A stretch of 64,000 nt of DNA, from positions 62,001 to 126,000 of the forward strand of contig JAEUWI010000015.1 of the NCBI GenBank assembly GCA_016791475.1, written 5' to 3'. Source of the DNA: Candidatus Hydrogenedentota bacterium. Lineage in GTDB: Bacteria > Hydrogenedentota > Hydrogenedentia > Hydrogenedentales > JAEUWI01. The stretch's first letter is position 1. Each line of letters starts with the position of its first letter. Shown piece by piece: positions 16,076 to 27,204 of this stretch. Below the pieces are notes generated by a model that was not told the origin of the DNA, searched no databases, and worked only from the letters and a program-made list of their open reading frames with translations. A program made the position numbers and the translations under genes.

Positions 16076-17203
16076 TTAATACGCCGAACGCACGCCCTCG
16101 TTGATTCCAATCGCCAGGCGGCGACCGCTCACGCGATCATCATTCAGGTGGACCTCGCTGCTGGATATGGCGGCAACGATAAAGCGATCCATGATGCGAT
16201 CCGACTGGCCCACCGTCACCTCCTGCTCGTAATCCGGGTTATTCAGGCGAAACGTGGCCTTCTTTCCATCGGAGTCCACCGATTTCAGCACAAACTTGAA
16301 CTGGCCGATCTCCCGCGCCACGGACTCGTACTTCGTCCGAATTTCCGGCGCGGAATCCACCTTCATCGCCCGCTGCATCATTTCGTAGGCCTTATCCTGA
16401 TCCGCGCGGCGCCAGGGATTGGCCGCCATGAGCGAATCCACATCTTTCAATAGAACCGAACGGACATCGGCGGCGATCTGACGGTTGGCGTCGGTGTCGT
16501 TGACCCGTAGCGCCGTCATCGCCTCTTCAAAAGCAACTATCGAGTCTTCTTGCGCCGCCAGCATCTCCAGCGCCCGATTCGTATAGACAACCTGATTGGC
16601 CCGGTTTCGGGCGTCGATAAATTCACTAATCTTGCCCCAGGCGAAGTTCCCGCCAAAATACAGCAGCACCAGCGCGCCGATCACCATGACAATGGGCCTG
16701 ATTCGGCCCGCAAGCCCGGCGCTGGACGATTGGGGCAACTGGGCGCGGGAAATGCTCACCGATGATGAAGACGGCATATCGTCCAGCAGCGACGCGGCCA
16801 GGTTGCGACTGTACTCGTCCAGATCCTGCGCGACGTGTGCGCTGCGTTTCGGGGGCGGGGGCGGGGGCGTACGCCCGAGGAGCCGATCCAGAAAACTCAC
16901 CTTGCGGCGGCTCGCAAGCATCGCCTCTACCGACGACGCCTCCTCCACGCGAAAGGATTCCAGCGCACCCGTTACATTGCCGGAAGGCGCATAACTGGTC
17001 TTGGATTCCCCACCCAGATCCTTCAGGGTGAGCTTCATTTCCTCGCGGCGCGGTCGCCCCACCTCTTCCCCGCAATGGTGGCACTTGGTCGCCCAGACGC
17101 TCACCTTCATACGGCACGTCGGGCAAAGCCGCATTTCTTCCTGCGGTTCGCCATAACTGCCCTTGTTATTCTGATCCTGGGACACGACTCCGACTCCTTT
17201 CAT
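16076..17203 (-). CDS. Zinc-ribbon membrane protein of unknown function
   Basis: 375 residues from the ATG at 17203; an in-frame ATG at 17221 would add six residues but has no ribosome site. A CPTC ... CHHC zinc ribbon lies near residues 25-45. A proline run follows (TPPPPPPKRS), then a Ser-rich stretch and one membrane helix (IRPIVMVIGALVLLYFGG). The C-terminal half is helical (DARNRANQVVYTNRALEMLA) and ends in a small beta domain. The layout suggests a cytoplasmic sensor head with an extracytoplasmic helical domain. No known family was recognised beyond the ribbon. Confidence 0.72.
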   Translation of the reverse strand: MKGVGVVSQDQNNKGSYGEPQEEMRLCPTCRMKVSVWATKCHHCGEEVGRPRREEMKLTLKDLGGESKTSYAPSGNVTGALESFRVEEASSVEAMLASRRKVSFLDRLLGRTPPPPPPKRSAHVAQDLDEYSRNLAASLLDDMPSSSSVSISRAQLPQSSSAGLAGRIRPIVMVIGALVLLYFGGNFAWGKISEFIDARNRANQVVYTNRALEMLAAQEDSIVAFEEAMTALRVNDTDANRQIAADVRSVLLKDVDSLMAANPWRRADQDKAYEMMQRAMKVDSAPEIRTKYESVAREIGQFKFVLKSVDSDGKKATFRLNNPDYEQEVTVGQSDRIMDRFIVAAISSSEVHLNDDRVSGRRLAIGINEGVRSAY

Positions 17204-17556
17204 GTACCTGTCTGCCGTCATCCGAATTGGAGGACCCCTTCACGCTGCGGGAATCTCCGCCCCATTCGGACTTTATTCTGTTTTCATCCGGACTGCTGGC
17301 TGCGCCACTCGGACTATCGTACCTTTATTACCTTTCCACAATAAAGAGGTGATCTCAGTAAATCAAGCTTATGCCTTCGGGCCGACCAATTTCCATGGAC
17401 CACGGGAATCGCCACGGGTATTCCAAATCTGCTACCATGCGCCCCGTTCAAACGAGAATGTAAGGGGACCGCACGGCCCACGTGTCCGCAGCAACTTCCG
17501 AAACCGGCGTTCAGGCCCGTTCAAGCGTACCACACCATGAAATCCAAAACCCGACT
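17204..17556. other. Gene-free divergent spacer
   Basis: 353 bases between the zinc-ribbon gene (minus) and the His-Cys membrane protein gene (plus). It must hold both promoters, but no clear -35/-10 pair could be picked with confidence. A short hairpin-capable CTTTATT...AATAAAG lies near 17322-17347. Nothing else was recognised. Confidence 0.4.
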
Positions 17557-18498
17557 ATGACGACCAGTACCATACCCCTGCGAGAGCGCGTCGGGGCAAC
17601 CGGGTGCTACCTGGGACTCCTGCCCTTGCCGTACCTCGTTCCTCAGGGCGATAACCGCCCCTATGGACGCCATCACTACCGTCAGGCCGCCATTCTATTC
17701 GGCGCGCTTCTGGCCCTGTTGGGCCTTCTGGCCGCCGCCTTGCTGATCTTATCATATCTGCTGGTCTATCATCGCGAATTCTACGAAAGTACCCGCATCG
17801 AGGTTCATGTATTCGGGATCATTCGCAAACTCTTTCTGGCCTGGGGCGTCTTCTGGGCCTTCGCCCTCGGCATGGCCCTGCTGGGGAAGGCACGCCCCAT
17901 GCCCCTGGTCCACCGAATGGCCACCCGCGACTGGGCCGTTCGAATGGCCCGCCTCGGGCTTGCCGCCGTCTATCTTTTCGTCCTGACTCTTATCCCTTTT
18001 GCCGTCCACGCATCCCTCCTGGTGCCCGCCAACCGAGAATCCGGCGCGGTGTACATGGTCTATGAGGACAACGGCATCTTCCCCCGCTGGCTCTTTGCCC
18101 TCGCCTTTTACCCCATGGCCCGAGCGGCCGAAAGCACCTACGGAAAGGACAGCGCGGTCCTGATCAAGATATCACGGGCAACCGTGGCCAGGGCGCTCGC
18201 GGAGGGGCATGTGGTGTTCGTCGGTTCCCATGGCACCCGGAAGGGGCTGATGCTGCACAACGACTGGCTGCTCCCGAAGGACATCGCGGCGCTCCCGAAG
18301 AATAAATCGCTTAAGTTTGTCTATCTGACCGGCTGTGACAGCGGCGACCAGCGGGAGGCGTGGACCGCCGCTTTCGCCCCCGCCGACGTGGTCACCTATG
18401 ACCGGCTCAGCGCCTCCCTGGAGCACGCCTGGTGGCTGTGGTTCAGTGGACCTGAAAAAGTGCGTGCCATGTACGCGGAGGAATCCCATGTCGGATGA
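17557..18498 (+). CDS. Membrane protein with a caspase/CHAT-like His-Cys pair in its C-terminal domain
   Basis: 313 residues from ATG 17557; upstream codons in frame look non-coding. Three hydrophobic segments at about 45-70, 90-110 and 133-153 place the remainder outside or on the membrane face. The C-terminal domain (about 160-313) has two strand-plus-motif blocks, HVVFVGSHGTRKG with His225 and LKFVYLTGCDSGD with Cys260, 35 residues apart. Clan CD peptidases (caspases, gingipains, CHAT) place their catalytic His and Cys after just such strands (hhh-x-HG and hhh-x-x-C-x-SG). A peptidase role is therefore an inference from two motifs, not an established match. It overlaps the aldolase gene by 11 bases, so the two are co-translated. 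Confidence 0.6.
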   Translation: MTTSTIPLRERVGATGCYLGLLPLPYLVPQGDNRPYGRHHYRQAAILFGALLALLGLLAAALLILSYLLVYHREFYESTRIEVHVFGIIRKLFLAWGVFWAFALGMALLGKARPMPLVHRMATRDWAVRMARLGLAAVYLFVLTLIPFAVHASLLVPANRESGAVYMVYEDNGIFPRWLFALAFYPMARAAESTYGKDSAVLIKISRATVARALAEGHVVFVGSHGTRKGLMLHNDWLLPKDIAALPKNKSLKFVYLTGCDSGDQREAWTAAFAPADVVTYDRLSASLEHAWWLWFSGPEKVRAMYAEESHVG

Positions 18499-19168
18499 GC
18501 AGAAGCTGCGCGAGACCATTTGTGAACTTGGGCGGCGCATGTACGCGCGCAATCTGGTGGGCGGGACCGACGGCAACCTGAGTGTGCGCCTGCCCGATGG
18601 CCACTTCCTGTGCACACCCAGTGGCGTCTCCAAAGGCTACATGAAGCCCGAAGATCTCATCGTGGCCGATGGCGCGGGAAACAAGGTTCGCGGCGAGGGC
18701 AAGGTCACCTCGGAGTTCTTTACCCACCTGGCCTGCTTCGAAGAGCGCCCGGATATTGCCGCCGTAGTCCACGCCCATCCGCCCATCGCCACCGCCTTTA
18801 CCCTGGCGGGGGTGTCTCTCGCAGAACCCGTGCTCCCCGAACTGGTGGCCGCCCTGGGCGGCATCCCGGTCACCGCCTACGCCACCCCCGGCACGCCCGA
18901 GGGGAATGAAGTGATCCGTCCCCTCATTCGCCTCTGCGACGGCCTCATGCTGGACCGCCACGGCTCGGTCACCGTGGGCGCAACGCTCGAAAGCGCCTAC
19001 TTCAAGCTGGAAAAGATCGAGCATTCGGCCACGGTATTGCTCGCCGCGCGCCAGTTGGGCGGGGCTTCCCGGCTGGGTGCGGCCGAAGTGGATCGCGTGC
19101 TGGCGACCCGCGCACCCTATGGCGCCACCGGACCGGTATACACGGCCGAGCTGTACACGGATCATTAG
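18488..19168 (+). CDS. Class II aldolase/adducin-family protein (L-fuculose-phosphate aldolase-like)
   Basis: 226 residues, the usual length. The ATG lies inside the end of the upstream gene. Marks: NLVGGTDGNLSVRLPDG (phosphate site), TPSGVSKGYMKPEDLIVADG, a catalytic-region Glu in KVTSEFFTHLACFE, the zinc pair in VVHAHPPIATAF (near residues 94-96) and a third His in MLDRHGSVTVG. Such enzymes split sugar phosphates such as L-fuculose-1-phosphate or related methylthio sugars with zinc. The exact substrate is unclear. Together with the PfkB kinase elsewhere in the window it could serve sugar breakdown, but no pathway cluster is present. Confidence 0.9.
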   Translation: MSDEQKLRETICELGRRMYARNLVGGTDGNLSVRLPDGHFLCTPSGVSKGYMKPEDLIVADGAGNKVRGEGKVTSEFFTHLACFEERPDIAAVVHAHPPIATAFTLAGVSLAEPVLPELVAALGGIPVTAYATPGTPEGNEVIRPLIRLCDGLMLDRHGSVTVGATLESAYFKLEKIEHSATVLLAARQLGGASRLGAAEVDRVLATRAPYGATGPVYTAELYTDH

Positions 19169-19172
19169 TAAG

Positions 19173-19457
19173 TTACACGGCGACTTTGGACCGCCAGATG
19201 ATCCGTGCCAGCGCATAGGAGATGGTCAACCCCACGACGAGATGGAGCGCCACCACAGCGACGATCAGCGGTTTCGGATCCAGAAACAGGAACGCATAAA
19301 TCACGTGCAGCGGCTCCCAGGCCGCAACACCCGCAGAATCTACGATCTGCATAGGGAGTATGGGCAGGCATGACGATGCCACAAGGACAACTATAACAAT
19401 CTGCCAGAATTTATCCCGAAAAATAAGTCGGGTTGGCGGCTGGATGCGTTTCGTCAT
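19173..19457 (-). CDS. Small two-helix membrane protein, function unknown
   Basis: 94 residues with GGGAG well placed before the ATG. Two or three hydrophobic stretches are seen (FWQIVIVVLVASSCLPIL, PLIVAVVALHLVVGLTISYA). Basic ends flank the helices. It converges with the aldolase gene only 4 bases away and sits 27 bases downstream of ilvE on the same strand, so it may be read from the ilvE transcript. No family was recognised. Confidence 0.62.
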   Translation of the reverse strand: MTKRIQPPTRLIFRDKFWQIVIVVLVASSCLPILPMQIVDSAGVAAWEPLHVIYAFLFLDPKPLIVAVVALHLVVGLTISYALARIIWRSKVAV

Positions 19458-19484
19458 GGGAATGCTCCCTCGCGCGGCATGCGC

Positions 19485-20414
19485 TCAATAAACCGGCGTG
19501 CACCAGTGGCGGTAGGCGTCCACCTTGCCCGTGACAACCTTGAAATAGATGTCCTGCAGACTGCGGGTCACCGGACCAGGTTTACCCGCGCCCACGGGAC
19601 GTCGGTCGACCGAGCGGATGGGAGCCACCTGGGCGCCTGTGCCGCAGAAGAAGGCCTCATCGCTGATGTAAAGCTCGGTGCGCGCGATGGGCCGTTCAAC
19701 GACCTTGATGCCCAACTGCTCCTGCGCGAGCTGGATGATCGTATTACGGGTAATCCCCACCAGAATGTCGGCATTGGCCGGCGGCGTGATGAGGGTGTCG
19801 CCCTGCAGCACGAAAATATTCATCGCGCTGCCTTCGGCCACCGTGCCGTCTTCCCGGAGAAAAATGGCTTCGTGGAATCCGGACTGCTTGGCTTCCGAAG
19901 CCGCCAGGGACGAGTTGATGTAGCTGCCGGTGGTCTTGGCGCGTGTGGGAATGGCGTTGTCCGAAAGGCGGCGCCAGGAGGACACGGCCACGTCCAGCCC
20001 CTCGCTCGTGTCCACGTAGTCGCCAAGCTTGATGAGATAGCAGCAAAGCGCGCTGGAAACGCCGCGCACGGCGGGCCCGAGGGACAGCTCGCTCTTGTAA
20101 CAAAGCGGACGGAGATAGATGTCCTCGCGCAGGGCGCAACGCCGCGACACTTCCAGGCAGATCTCGGTAATCTGACCCGCGTCTTCAGGGATATCCATGC
20201 ACAAGATGTTGAAGTTCCGCACAAAACGATCAATGTGCTCGTGGAGGCGGAAGATGAAGAGATTGTCTTCGTCTTTGCTGTAGTAGCCGCGGATCCCTTC
20301 AAAGAGTGCCGTGCCGTAGTTGAAGGCATGGGTCATCACGCTGAGTTTCGCGTCGGCGGAATTCATGTACGCGCCTTCAAAGTACGCCGTCGATCCTGGA
20401 TGCATTGTTGCCAT
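19485..20414 (-). CDS. ilvE: Branched-chain amino acid aminotransferase
   Basis: 309 residues, normal for fold-IV class enzymes. The start ATG at 20414 has GGAGAG upstream. Marks: YFEGAYMNSADAKLSVMTHA, TALFEGIRGY, the PLP lysine K160 in TRAKTTGSYINSSLA, EAIFLREDGTVAEGSAMNIF and the phosphate loop VGITRNTIIQLA. It moves the amino group between glutamate and the keto acids of Leu, Ile and Val in the cytoplasm. It is not in an ilv/leu cluster here. A small perfect hairpin just upstream of the ribosome site is listed separately. Confidence 0.95.
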   Translation of the reverse strand: MATMHPGSTAYFEGAYMNSADAKLSVMTHAFNYGTALFEGIRGYYSKDEDNLFIFRLHEHIDRFVRNFNILCMDIPEDAGQITEICLEVSRRCALREDIYLRPLCYKSELSLGPAVRGVSSALCCYLIKLGDYVDTSEGLDVAVSSWRRLSDNAIPTRAKTTGSYINSSLAASEAKQSGFHEAIFLREDGTVAEGSAMNIFVLQGDTLITPPANADILVGITRNTIIQLAQEQLGIKVVERPIARTELYISDEAFFCGTGAQVAPIRSVDRRPVGAGKPGPVTRSLQDIYFKVVTGKVDAYRHWCTPVY

Positions 20415-20429
20415 GTATTCTCTCTCCAA

Positions 20430-20449
20430 CCACCAGCCTTTCCTGGTGG
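20430..20449 (-). promoter_or_regulatory. Small hairpin in the ilvE leader
   Basis: A perfect 7-bp stem (CCACCAG with CTGGTGG around a six-base loop) ends about 5 bases before the ilvE ribosome site. It could influence initiation or be chance. The rest of the gap 20415-20837 (423 bp) holds no recognised gene; a terminator lies at 20781-20807. No leader peptide rich in Leu, Ile or Val was found. Confidence 0.3.
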
Positions 20450-20780
20450 ATACCATGTTCAATTTACATCTTGCCTTCCCGCCATGCATACCCTGATATC
20501 AAGGGATCGCAACGAATTGGATGTCGGGACGGGCCTGACCGGGATGCGGAAAACCGGCTGCGCGGCACATCCGCAAGGGAAAACACGAAGCGAGGCCCGG
20601 TCCCGAGGCGCTGTGGCGCACCGTTTCAGCGAAAGGCTCACCAGCATTGATGGGTGGGCGTAGTATCGCCGTTCCCGTGCGGTTTTTGCAAACTATGCCC
20701 CGAACGGACACGTCGCGTCCACCCGGCCAGGTGTCTCAAATCCCCCCTCGATCTCCGAAGCCCGACACCGGACAACAAAG

Positions 20781-20807
20781 AAAAATCCCCCCGCCTGGGC
20801 AGGGGGA
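20781..20807 (-). terminator. Rho-independent terminator after the CBS gene
   Basis: On the minus strand a stem of CCCCC/GGGGG with a TGCCCAGGC-type loop region is followed by ATTTTTC. It starts 31 bases after the stop codon of the CBS-domain gene. Confidence 0.7.
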
Positions 20808-20837
20808 ACGGCGCCTGAATTCTCCGGGACCCGGAGG

Positions 20838-21329
20838 CTACTGGGGCGTATATTGCTCGATGATTACCCGATTGGAAGACATGCGCCAGCGCGCACGATA
20901 CGCCTTTTCGTAATAGGCGTCGTTCAGCCGCTCGATAAGTTCCGAGCTTTCCGCCATGTCCGCCTCAATTAAATCGCGCATCGAGATCAACCCTTTGTAG
21001 ACACCGCCATTGCCAACGACGACCAGATGGCGCACGCCGCACTTGAACATCACCGACTTGGCATGGCGCATCTCGTCGTCCAGTCGAACGGAAATGGGAT
21101 CGGCGGTCATCACCTGGCGCACCCGTACCACGTCGATGTCCAGCGACGCGTTGACCACCCGGTGCATCAGATCCCGTTCGGAGAAGATGCCCACCACATG
21201 TTCCCCCTCTTTCACCGCTACGGCCCCCGTCTTCCGTTCGCATAGATAATGCACTGCATCTCGGACCGAGTCATCGGCGCTCACCCAGTAAATATCGCGA
21301 GGCTTGATGACATCACTGATCATTTGCAT
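20838..21329 (-). CDS. CBS-domain pair protein
   Basis: 163 residues. The start is fixed by AAGGAGG seven bases before the ATG at 21329; the longer frame upstream is not coding. Two CBS motifs fill the protein: one with GAVAVKEGEHVVGIFSERDL near residues 35-60 and one with GVRHLVVVGNGGVYKGLISM followed by RDL near residues 98-120. A short helical tail follows (YYEKAYRARWRMSSNRVI). CBS pairs bind adenosyl ligands such as AMP or ATP and act as energy sensors. Nothing shows which partner it controls. Confidence 0.9.
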   Translation of the reverse strand: MQMISDVIKPRDIYWVSADDSVRDAVHYLCERKTGAVAVKEGEHVVGIFSERDLMHRVVNASLDIDVVRVRQVMTADPISVRLDDEMRHAKSVMFKCGVRHLVVVGNGGVYKGLISMRDLIEADMAESSELIERLNDAYYEKAYRARWRMSSNRVIIEQYTPQ

Positions 21330-21547
21330 GGACCCTACCTCCTTCTGTGGCGAAGGCTGCGAATCGCCACGGCTGCCTGGCTGGAACGGCTGCAAACGCG
21401 CCCGGAGCGGGCGTGATGCGGAAACAAAATTCGGTTGCACTCTCCTCTTCGTATTGATTAGTCTAGCACAGGGTCGTCCATTCGGATACCCCTTTTTGCG
21501 TCCCCAATACGGCACTTTTCTCAGTTTACACACCAAAGGCCCGCCCC

Positions 21548-23949: not shown

Positions 23950-24099
23950 TCCGTTGTAAATTCTACGTAATTCCAGTATCCTAACACGACGCTTGGCGCC
24001 CAATTGAGAGCCTGCCGGACGGGCAACTTCAATTGGGCGTGTCATTTGTGCGTAACGGCCCCGCGACAGCAGGCGGAGCCACCGGGAGGATCTTCAATC

Positions 24100-27000
24100 G
24101 TGCGTCAACCTTGGCCCTTCGCAATGTCCACTCTTGCGGTCGCCCTCGTCTTGTTTGCATTCGCCTCGGGCGTTCGGGCGCAGGAGGAGAGTTTTGTGAA
24201 CTTTGAGACGGCCCCGGTTCATCCCGTGGATTTAAGTCCCTCGGCTCAGTTCCTGGCGGTGGCGCACCTGGCGGACAACCGCGTTCTGATCTTTGACCTG
24301 ACGGAGGGCTCTCCCGTCCTGAGCCGCGCCATTCCGGTGGGCATTGACCCCGTCTCCGCACGATTCCGCACCGATACGGAACTGTGGGTCGTGAACCATA
24401 TCTCGGACACCATCACCATCGTGGATGCCTCCAATGGTGCCGTCACGGGCTTGATCCAGACCCTCGACGAGCCGGCGGATGTCGTATTCGCCGGTAATCC
24501 GGTGCGGGCCTTTGTCACCTGCTCGCAGGTCAACACCATTCAGGTATTTGATACCACAACACACGGCGTGGTTGAGGAAATGGTCCTGGATGCGGAGGAT
24601 CCCCGCGCCCTGGCCGTCAGCCCCGACGGCAACACGGTCTATGCCGCGATCTTCGAGTCCGGCAACCGAAGCACCCTGCTGGGCGGCGGTTCCGTGGGAC
24701 CAGGCACCATCAGCTTCCCCCCCAATGTCGTGGACGATGCGAATGCGCCCCACGGCGTGGTCAATCCCGCCCCGAACAACGGGGCCCAGTTTTCCCCACC
24801 CAAGAATCCGGCAAACGGCACGCCCCCCCCGGTGGGCCTTATCGTCAAGCAGGACAGCGAGGGGCTCTGGCGCGATGACACCGGAGCGAACTGGACCGAG
24901 TTGGTCAGCGGGAATCTGGCCGCCCAGTCCGGTCGCCCCGTAGGCTGGGAGTTGCTCGATCATGATATCGCGATTATTGATGCCAACGATTTGTCCGTGG
25001 ATTACATCGACCACCTGATGAACATTGGCATGGCGCTCGCCGTGAATCCCGGCACCGGCGCGGTGACGCTCGTGGGCACCGACGCCACCAACGAAATCCG
25101 GTTTGAGCCCGTGGTCAACGGCACCTTTCTACGGGTCCTGTATGCCGCCGCCGACCCCGATACGGGGCAATCCACGACCATAGCGGACCTGAACGCCGCC
25201 CATGTCAACGGCTATGCGACCCGACGCATTCCCCAGGCGCAGCGCAACCGCTCCATCGGCGATCCGCGGGGCATCGTGTGGAACAGCGCCGGCACCACGG
25301 CCTACGTAACCGGCATGGGCTCCAACAACCTCGTGGTCATCAACACCCAGGGCGTCCGCGCGGGCCAGGCGGACACCATAGAGCTGGGCGAAGGACCTAC
25401 CGGCCTGGCCCTGGATGAAGAGCGTCAGCAACTCTACGTCTGGAACCGATTCGCGGCGTCTCTATCCGTCATCAGCACGGAGTCAGAGACTGAGCTCAGC
25501 CGTCTGAGCGTCTTCGATCCCACCCCGGCGGCCATCCGCACCGGGCGCAAACACCTGTACGACACCCACAAGACTTCCGGCCTCGGCCAAATCGCCTGTG
25601 CTTCCTGCCATGTGGATGCCCGCATGGATCGACTCGCCTGGGATCTCGGCGACCCCGCCGGTGATCTCCTCCAATTGACCAACCGTAATCTCGGCGGAGA
25701 TATCCCCGGCTTGAATGAGGATTTCCAGCCCTTCCACCCCATGAAGGGGCCCATGAGCACCCAGACCTTCCAGGGCATCATCGGTCAGGAGCCCTTCCAC
25801 TGGCGCGGCGACCGCCTCGGACTGGAAGATTTCAATCCCGCATTCAAGGGCCTTCAGGCTGACGACACCGAACTGACACCTACGGAGATGCAGGAATACG
25901 AGGATTTCCTCGCGACTATCCACTTTCCGCCGAATCCCTATCGCAATCTGGACAATACCCTGCCCACGAGCCTTCCCCTGCCCGATCACTTCGTCCCACA
26001 CCAGATGGACGTTCCGGCGGGCACGCCCCTGCCCAATGGCAACGCACGGGATGGTCTGGATCTCTATCGCGATCACGTAAGGCGGATTGACGGCGACACC
26101 ATGGCCTGCGTCACCTGCCACAGCTTGCCAAGCGGGAATGGCCCGAATGCCCGATTCAACGGAACATCCATCGAGACCATTCCGGATGGCCCACGGGACG
26201 AAAAGCACCTCATGCTCGTCAGCATCGATGGTTCCACCAATCGCTCCCTCAAAGTGGCCCAGCTTCGCAACCTCTACGACAAAGTGGGCATGACCATGCT
26301 CAACAGCCCGAGTCGTGCGGGCTTCGGCTTCCTCCACGACGGCAGCGTGGACACCCTGGAGCGCTTTCTCTCCGAAAACGCCTTCAATACGGCAACGGCC
26401 CAGGAACTGGCCAACCTCGTCGCCCTGATGCTGGCTTTCTCCGGCTCAGACTTTGAACCCGATGCCACCCCGCCCGCGATCCCCTTCCTCGACATCCCCG
26501 GGGAACCCAGCAAGGACGTCCACGCCGCCGTGGGCCAGCAGACGGAAGTAGACCCCGCCGCAAAGGATCTCGGCGAGCTGGCCCAGTTTGTCAATATCGT
26601 CGAGACCTCGAACCGCGTTGAGCTCGTGGCCCATTTCCCGGTGAATGGCATCCAGCGCGGCGCGCGCTACCAGGGCAACGATTCCTTCGAGCGCGACGCT
26701 GCAGGTTCTACCATCACGACCGATGCGCTGCTGGCTTCCGTGGACGATGGTGGAACCGCCATTTTTACGATTGTGGCCGCAGGCACCGCCAACCGGATCG
26801 CCCTCGATCGGGATCAGGACAGCTACTACGACTATGACGAAGTACTCGCCGGCTCCGACCCGGCCGACCCCGAAAGCTTCGGGGGCGGTGGCGAGGGAGA
26901 AGGCGAGGGCGAGCTGCTCTACCACTCGGCCGATACCAACGAGGACTATGCCATCTCCCTCTCCGAACTCCTGCGCATCGTCCAGTTCTACAACAGCGAC

Positions 27001-27204
27001 CGACTGGGCTGCCAGGATGGCACAGAAGACGGCTTCCAGCCCAACGGCACCAGCGAAACCTGTGCGCCCCACAAGAGCGACTACGCACCCCAGGACTGGC
27101 GCCTGAACCTCAACGAGGTACTCCGCCTCATCCAGGTCTACAACATCGGTGGCTACGAGCTGTGCGAAGGCAGCGAGGACGGCATTTGCCCCGTGGCGCC
27201 ATAA
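24100..27204 (+). CDS. Secreted beta-propeller, di-heme cytochrome protein with dockerin-like C-terminus
   Basis: About 1,034 residues from GTG 24100, which has GGGAGGA eight bases upstream; the later ATG (24124) has none. The signal peptide ends near SGVRAQ. Residues about 35-480 form a YVTN-type propeller (VDLSPSAQFLAVAHLADN, NTVYAAIFESGNRS). Two c-type heme sites follow, CASCH and CVTCH, in a region like di-heme peroxidase-type cytochromes. A glycine/glutamate linker (GGGEGEGEGE) precedes a tail with two EF-hand-like units (DTNEDYAISLSELLRIVQFY, and LNLNEVLRLIQVYN) and paired cysteines. The tail could anchor the protein at the surface or bind a partner. Electron transfer outside the cytoplasm is likely; the substrate is unknown. 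Confidence 0.85.
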   Translation: MRQPWPFAMSTLAVALVLFAFASGVRAQEESFVNFETAPVHPVDLSPSAQFLAVAHLADNRVLIFDLTEGSPVLSRAIPVGIDPVSARFRTDTELWVVNHISDTITIVDASNGAVTGLIQTLDEPADVVFAGNPVRAFVTCSQVNTIQVFDTTTHGVVEEMVLDAEDPRALAVSPDGNTVYAAIFESGNRSTLLGGGSVGPGTISFPPNVVDDANAPHGVVNPAPNNGAQFSPPKNPANGTPPPVGLIVKQDSEGLWRDDTGANWTELVSGNLAAQSGRPVGWELLDHDIAIIDANDLSVDYIDHLMNIGMALAVNPGTGAVTLVGTDATNEIRFEPVVNGTFLRVLYAAADPDTGQSTTIADLNAAHVNGYATRRIPQAQRNRSIGDPRGIVWNSAGTTAYVTGMGSNNLVVINTQGVRAGQADTIELGEGPTGLALDEERQQLYVWNRFAASLSVISTESETELSRLSVFDPTPAAIRTGRKHLYDTHKTSGLGQIACASCHVDARMDRLAWDLGDPAGDLLQLTNRNLGGDIPGLNEDFQPFHPMKGPMSTQTFQGIIGQEPFHWRGDRLGLEDFNPAFKGLQADDTELTPTEMQEYEDFLATIHFPPNPYRNLDNTLPTSLPLPDHFVPHQMDVPAGTPLPNGNARDGLDLYRDHVRRIDGDTMACVTCHSLPSGNGPNARFNGTSIETIPDGPRDEKHLMLVSIDGSTNRSLKVAQLRNLYDKVGMTMLNSPSRAGFGFLHDGSVDTLERFLSENAFNTATAQELANLVALMLAFSGSDFEPDATPPAIPFLDIPGEPSKDVHAAVGQQTEVDPAAKDLGELAQFVNIVETSNRVELVAHFPVNGIQRGARYQGNDSFERDAAGSTITTDALLASVDDGGTAIFTIVAAGTANRIALDRDQDSYYDYDEVLAGSDPADPESFGGGGEGEGEGELLYHSADTNEDYAISLSELLRIVQFYNSDRLGCQDGTEDGFQPNGTSETCAPHKSDYAPQDWRLNLNEVLRLIQVYNIGGYELCEGSEDGICPVAP

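Follow-up and report, generated by a model that had tools for sequence, protein, structure and literature searches.

A lineage-restricted family of membrane proteins with a predicted caspase-like domain in Candidatus Hydrogenedentota

The focal gene and its product

The window analysed here is a stretch of 64,000 nucleotides from a Candidatus Hydrogenedentota genome (contig JAEUWI010000015.1, positions 62,001 to 126,000). On its forward strand, the focal gene at 17557–18498 encodes a protein of 313 amino acids, with an ATG start and a TGA stop codon at 18496–18498. An in-frame GTG at 17482 offers a possible longer start; the ATG is preferred because in most members the family similarity starts at about residue 8. 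As read from its sequence and AlphaFold model, the product is an integral membrane protein whose C-terminal part forms a caspase-like domain. It is followed on the same strand by a gene for a class II aldolase (18488–19168, 226 amino acids, Pfam Aldolase_II E = 4.4e-48), a neighbor identified by its Pfam match and synteny that we do not count as part of the system.

Three parts can be distinguished in the focal protein. A DUF4870/HOTT (Tic20-like) membrane region comprises residues 8–109 (17578–17883) and is indicated by hhalign, weak Pfam matches and the helix pattern. An extra transmembrane helix at residues 125–155 (17929–18021), placed by the model and the charge pattern, joins the C-terminal domain. 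The latter is a compact, putatively caspase-like domain of residues 163–313 (18043–18495), related to CHAT and C25 of clan CD by profiles and structure matches and predicted from the topology to be extracytoplasmic. Within it, VVFVGSHG leads to His225 (codon CAT, 18229–18231), a candidate catalytic histidine followed by the invariant Gly226, and FVYLTGCDSG contains Cys260 (codon TGT, 18334–18336), a candidate nucleophile; both assignments draw on invariance and profile alignment.

The original prediction for this gene, made from the letters alone, had described three membrane helices, the two motifs 35 residues apart and each behind a hydrophobic strand, and an overlap of 11 bases with the aldolase start. 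All of this agrees with our data: the model contains long hydrophobic helices at residues 35–71, 81–109 and 125–155, all N-terminal to the C-terminal domain, His225 and Cys260 are separated by 35 residues and preceded by modeled strands at 219–223 and 254–257, and the aldolase ATG at 18488 lies within the focal gene, whose stop codon ends at 18498 (overlap 18488–18498).

Distribution and conservation of the family

When the 68 genomes of Ca. Hydrogenedentota were searched in full, 36 proved to carry a homologue, among them 26 of the 38 of good quality. Each has a single locus, which in G032 is in two pieces. A profile search of 386 genomes, at least 318 of them from outside the phylum, returned the same 36 homologues and two partial matches to the membrane part only. 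The family is thus restricted to the phylum as far as sampled. Mapped on an rpoB tree that covers 63 genomes, the presence of the gene requires about five changes, and family f11, which lacks it, adjoins family f5 inside the gene-bearing part of the tree. With midpoint rooting, this tree suggests an old gene with several later losses.

Thirty-four of the 36 homologues are intact and were aligned. The two outside the alignment are that of G019, which ends at a contig end before the C-terminal domain, and that of G032, which is split by a frameshift and nevertheless keeps the equivalents of both His225 and Cys260. The split (L036:3730-4592) falls at a proline-rich stretch encoded by a run of C, and both halves are conserved apart from the frameshift, which may therefore reflect an error in sequencing or assembly.

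Identity to the window protein ranges from 26 to 53% among the 34 aligned sequences, and 11 of 313 columns are invariant: P23, W96, P176, H225, G226, G230, Y256, C260, W269, A276 and H290. His225 and Cys260 had been named before the alignment was made, with the expectation that homologues of a true clan CD peptidase would not vary at either; we looked for such variation and found none in the 34 intact sequences, down to 26% identity. Position 170 is acidic in all 34 (Glu in 21, Asp in 13), and position 261, immediately after the cysteine, is Asp in 28. The spacing between the histidine and the cysteine is 34–36 residues across the aligned family, and that between position 170 and the histidine is 55–56.

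None of the 34 members matched the PADLOC profiles of anti-phage defence at E ≤ 0.1, and the window protein matched no PHROG profile; a role as a defence system was rejected on these results.

Evidence for a clan CD domain

Searches of Pfam and NCBIfam gave no match to the focal protein, and a sequence search of the PDB returned chance matches only (Claudin-3 and Dynamin-2). Taken singly, seven of the 34 family members weakly matched Pfam Peptidase_C25 (best E = 0.0016), and six matched Pfam CHAT (best E = 8.7e-4). Because these weak matches point in one direction, we compared profiles with profiles. The family profile aligned by hhalign with that of 21 CHAT domains of the same phylum with a probability of 93.4 and a score of 52.7, over about 59 columns around His and Cys, placing H225 on the CHAT histidine and C260 on the CHAT cysteine. 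With 15 C25 domains of the phylum the probability was 35.6 and the score 34.2, and the histidines and the cysteines were again paired with each other. The controls scored lower: the best of 59 column shuffles reached 22.1 for CHAT and 21.0 for C25, reversed CHAT 12.7, and 17 unrelated families from the neighborhood at most 21.2, and the CHAT and C25 profiles compared with each other gave 39.6. Flavodoxin (16.2) and Hydrolase_4 (13.0), which stand for look-alike folds, fell far below the 52.7 for CHAT, by which an identity as flavodoxin or alpha/beta hydrolase was rejected.

The AlphaFold2 models have a pLDDT of 92.8 for the full-length protein and 90.0 for the domain alone. In VIA the best match of both is SAVED-CHAT (PDB 8tl0; Z = 11.1 for the full-length model and 11.3 for the domain), followed by DdvA (PDB 8rw5; 8.9 and 9.9). 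TPR-CHAT (8.8 and 8.9) and separase (8.0 and 8.5) also match both models, gingipain RgpB the full-length model (8.8) and legumain the domain model (8.4). Look-alikes stand near these clan CD entries: the flavodoxin-like domain of sulfite reductase reaches Z = 9.4 with the domain model, and cutinases, at about 8 with the full-length model, appear among or close behind them. Plain Foldseek gave no match at E ≤ 0.001 for either model, and its top ranks are GPCR fusion constructs and flavodoxin-like folds. A structural check of the fold, proposed with the original prediction, came out in its favor in VIA, where clan CD structures head the list, and Foldseek ranked other folds first. The fold alone would be ambiguous; with the residue-level profile match added, the reading of the modeled domain as clan CD and caspase-like is well supported.

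The protein stays below the cut-offs of the established families. CHAT (PF12770) gave no match for the window protein, the best of the 34 members is the one at E = 8.7e-4, and the list of CHAT matches in the phylum includes no locus of the family. For Peptidase_C25 (PF01364), where the best single member is the one at E = 0.0016, the family locus of G021 scored 21 bits against a cut-off of 23, and for DUF4870 the family locus of G018 scored 22.7 bits against 25. We therefore do not file the protein as a member of CHAT, C25 or DUF4870.

Candidate active site

A His-Gly pair with a downstream Cys is common to clan CD enzymes, according to the available part of one account (PMC12445089). All 34 aligned sequences of the focal family have His-Gly and then Cys, and in the model both motifs follow a core strand. 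In legumain the Cys-His dyad is extended by a residue that orients the histidine, Asn42, with Asp in this role in gingipain K, and the acidic Glu190 adjoins the cysteine and slows it, as stated in the accessible text of PMC9604545. By analogy and by their order in the chain, residue 170 and Asp261 could fit the His-orienting and Cys-slowing roles, respectively. In the window protein the former is Glu170 (18064–18066), located where the first strand of the domain ends, a candidate orienting acid by comparison with legumain and gingipain K. The global hhalign alignments with CHAT and C25 gave no placement for the acid at 170 or for His290.

His290 (18424–18426) is invariant in the alignment and lies near the start of the C-terminal helix in an E/Q-H-x-W-W-L-W motif. 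Together with this tryptophan-rich motif (18424–18441) it is about as conserved as the His225/Cys260 dyad, and the clan CD active-site residues in the portions of PMC12445089 and PMC9604545 at hand do not explain it.

Membrane region and topology

In the model, residues 8–109 form a broken, re-entrant-like helix (8–21/23–27), a charged loop, and helices 35–71 and 81–109. The loop is positively charged and contains the near-invariant His40. The published plan of HOTT/DUF4870 proteins consists of a re-entrant helix, a charged loop and two membrane helices, as far as the available part of PMC11628618 describes it, and by model and charge residues 8–109 show the same plan. A comparison by hhalign with 24 DUF4870 domains of the phylum gave a probability of 54.6 and a score of 30.6 over 34 columns, the best of 59 shuffles being 17.9, and 3 of 34 members match Pfam DUF4870 at E up to 1 (best E = 6.8e-4).

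The net charge before the first long helix is +3.06, and that of the loop between the second and third helices (107–127) is +2.94; both are positive in 34 of 34 sequences. The loop between the first and second helices (70–88) carries −0.88 and is positive in 3 of 34, and the segment 70–92, which includes two basic end residues, carries +1.03. From the positive-inside rule alone, this charge pattern would probably place the caspase-like domain outside the cytoplasm.

Gene neighborhood

The original prediction went further than the features of the protein and proposed a membrane-tethered peptidase coupled to the aldolase and sugar metabolism. The former part is borne out by the profiles and VIA, insofar as these indicate a membrane protein with a clan CD-like domain; the coupling did not survive the comparison of loci. 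Among 35 loci, 14 have an aldolase downstream of the focal gene: five of these, all in family f1, carry it on the same strand and nine on the opposite one. The other 21 loci have no aldolase in the examined flank, some because the contig ends. Same-strand adjacency, looked for in all 35 loci, is thus not conserved, and on this synteny coupling to the aldolase was rejected as a general feature. Proximity to the aldolase is partly conserved; co-transcription is not.

In f1 and some other genomes, the focal gene is flanked by a divergent gene for a zinc-ribbon protein and followed by genes for the aldolase, a class IV aminotransferase and a CBS protein. The last three (18488–21536 in the window) tend to lie near one another in f1, f2, part of f3 and f6, and across these families the aldolase strand flips relative to the focal gene. 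The divergent neighbor in the window (16076–17221, reverse strand) has a zinc-ribbon-like N-terminus, a proline-rich stretch and a likely transmembrane helix, and its homologue is upstream and divergent in 12 of 35 loci. In other genomes the setting is wholly different; in part of f3, for instance, the neighbors are what we take, from their sequences, to be dapB-like and surE-like genes. No conserved partner gene that would point to a substrate was found in the family neighborhoods. Exosortase was considered as a partner and rejected, as 13 of the 36 genomes that carry the focal gene have strong matches (best E below 1e-15) and so do 18 of the 32 that lack it, which amounts to no association.

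Dockerin-like modules

Another feature of the window concerns a possible class of partners. A large, beta-propeller-like open reading frame at 24004–27204 ends in a GEGEGE linker and a module of roughly 95 residues with two dockerin/EF-hand-like repeats (26902–27201, forward strand), which we regard as a lead only. Among 20 sampled modules, EF-hand_6 was matched in 17 and Dockerin_1 in 3 at E up to 0.1, and NCBIfam held no relevant model. The module ends the protein in 16 of the 17 sampled modules shown by pattern; modules that are not C-terminal occur in L253 and in G016/G017.

Modules were detected in 41 of 68 genomes of the phylum, with agreement between single-query and profile searches, and up to 75 or more were counted per genome; where modules are most numerous, the counts are minimum values. 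Four of the six f5 genomes have none, and neither does almost any genome of family f11. The distribution follows that of the focal gene: modules are present in all 36 genomes with the gene, eight of which carry just one, and absent from 27 of the 32 without it, the remaining five being G012, G033, G042, G043 and G058. The concordance across genomes is 0.93, compared with 0.32 for DUF4870, 0.40 for exosortase, 0.62 for CHAT, 0.65 for C25 and 0.66 for flavodoxin. Two lineages have neither gene nor modules, and on the rpoB tree at most two independent co-losses support a link. Among the independent contrasts, one or two pairs are in agreement, no pair conflicts, and another two or three are uninformative, so that the pair test cannot reach significance.

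The examined flanks of the focal gene contained four modules versus 1.4 expected; we count this against the link, like the five genomes with modules and no focal gene, the eight with a single module, the modules that are not C-terminal and the few co-losses. In G001 and in G016/G017 a module-bearing gene lies directly beside the focal gene in convergent orientation; such immediate adjacency in two independent genera compares with 0.15 expected (P = 0.01, a post hoc value). The shared distribution and this adjacency are suggestive of dockerin-like envelope proteins as clients, which we offer as a lead only. One can further imagine the focal protein as the core of a Hydrogenedentota envelope sorting or maturation system, in which the Tic20/HOTT-like part would hand exported proteins, namely those with GEGEGE-linked modules, to a caspase-type peptidase or transpeptidase on the outer face; we regard this larger scheme as improbable.

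On some contigs (G001:C279, G039:C139, G039:C63 and G040:C63), gingipain-like C25 domains and dockerin-like modules occur together in open frames of equal length. Some C25 peptidases of the phylum are therefore likely to bear the module, which can precede or follow the peptidase domain.

Proposed function and alternative explanations

The helices of the membrane part, the invariance of the His/Cys pair, the relationship to clan CD, and the single-copy, lineage-restricted distribution are the computed support for a function of the focal protein. We propose, with a probability of about 0.62, that it is a membrane-integrated, envelope-facing clan CD cysteine peptidase or transpeptidase that would cut arriving proteins. 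The DUF4870/HOTT (Tic20-like) region and the extra transmembrane helix would anchor the protein in the inner membrane and hold the compact caspase-fold domain on the outer face, an orientation predicted from the charges. The domain would most likely act as a cysteine peptidase, or as a transpeptidase like some clan CD enzymes; in this scheme Cys260 would be the nucleophile, His225 would serve as general acid/base, and the acidic residue 170 would orient the histidine. Presumed envelope substrates would be cut or trimmed on arrival.

The same features could belong to a regulated binding or sensing module on the membrane, a pseudo-enzyme or scaffold whose His and Cys serve in binding or redox sensing. 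DdvA, the second-best structure match, is a transmembrane anti-sigma factor and a regulator by title, and no substrate is visible in the gene neighborhood. Still, a dyad that is invariant and a residue 170 that is always acidic at identities of 26–53% are what one expects of catalysis, and we consider a purely regulatory domain unlikely. Another possibility is a domain that has the same fold and dyad but faces and acts in the cytoplasm, where the targets of CHAT proteases such as Csx29 are found. Some of the metacaspases with transmembrane helices are predicted inside, according to the part of PMC3501461 available. The charge pattern, which favors an outside C-terminus in 34 of 34 sequences, makes a cytoplasmic location quite unlikely.

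Two further explanations would remove the clan CD identity or shift the function elsewhere. If the domain had another three-layer alpha/beta fold, flavodoxin-like or that of a cutinase-like hydrolase, the HG...C pattern would have arisen by chance. That Foldseek puts flavodoxin-like folds on top for the domain model and that cutinases reach Z of about 8 in VIA would agree with this, against the hhalign scores of 16.2 and 13.0 for these folds and 52.7 for CHAT, which make such a coincidence very improbable. A joint role in sugar metabolism with the neighboring class II aldolase, finally, is scarcely credible: the 11-base overlap in the window and the same-strand aldolase next to the gene in five f1 genomes speak for it, and are set against an opposite strand in 9 of the 14 loci with an aldolase nearby and its absence from the examined flank in 21 of 35.

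Novelty and significance

Among the literature-search entries listed, none describes a protein that joins a HOTT/DUF4870 membrane part to a caspase-like domain, and none gives an account of the focal family; nothing relevant was found on Hydrogenedentes with caspase, or on DUF4870 with CHAT, caspase or C25. Judged by its sequences, this is a previously unnamed, lineage-restricted family among clan CD-like proteins, and membrane-linked caspase-fold proteins are already known in bacteria. In other lineages, membrane clan CD members carry out sorting, as do the GPI transamidase and PorU of type IX secretion, and an unrelated bacterial lineage that uses the clan CD fold at the inner membrane would be informative. 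If active, the family would add to clan CD a combination of a HOTT/Tic20-like membrane part and an envelope-facing caspase-like domain. HOTT proteins are largely uncharacterized, as the available part of PMC11628618 states, and a fused enzymatic domain would offer a handle on their function.

Comparison with known systems

The closest likeness is to CHAT proteases (TPR-CHAT/Csx29 and SAVED-CHAT; PF12770), which provide the best structure match (Z up to 11.3) as well as the best profile match. The differences lie in size, with about 150 residues in the focal domain and 289 positions in the CHAT model, and in architecture, as the focal protein has no TPR or SAVED part and its domain is fused to membrane helices and probably located outside; moreover, nearly all members of the focal family are below Pfam recognition. 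HetF of Anabaena is a membrane CHAT protein of the divisome that combines CHAT with one transmembrane segment (PMC8406250). In the available part of that account HetF has one predicted transmembrane segment, CHAT in residues 1–555 and a TPR part, whereas the focal protein has three transmembrane helices N-terminal to its domain and no TPR.

With the gingipain family (Peptidase_C25, PF01364) the focal protein shares aligned HG and C motifs and a Z of 8.8 to RgpB, but gingipains are large extracellular proteins and the focal protein is much shorter and membrane-integral. The likeness to DdvA (PDB 8rw5) extends over 132 residues (Z = 9.9) to the chain region 802–962 of a protein that is transmembrane by title; DdvA is much larger, the likeness is known from structure alignment, and a literature search found no paper on its structure. 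In family C13, that of legumain and the GPI transamidase PIGK, legumain resembles the focal domain in structure (Z = 8.4) and in a His-Cys dyad with an orienting residue, a likeness that is structural. Legumain also has ligase ability, according to the consulted part of PMC9604545. Among prokaryotic metacaspases (C14), 104 of 671 have predicted transmembrane helices, mostly a single N-terminal helix that is possibly a signal peptide, and the part of PMC3501461 at our disposal describes no HOTT-like region in them.

The membrane part, in turn, resembles MamF-like/HOTT (DUF4870) proteins and Tic20 in its re-entrant helix, charged loop and two membrane helices, by the plan in the accessible part of the HOTT account, and by a distant profile match. 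The HOTT matches of the phylum are mostly in open frames of about 120–190 amino acids and are therefore probably stand-alone proteins, to which the focal protein adds an extra helix and a putative caspase-like domain.
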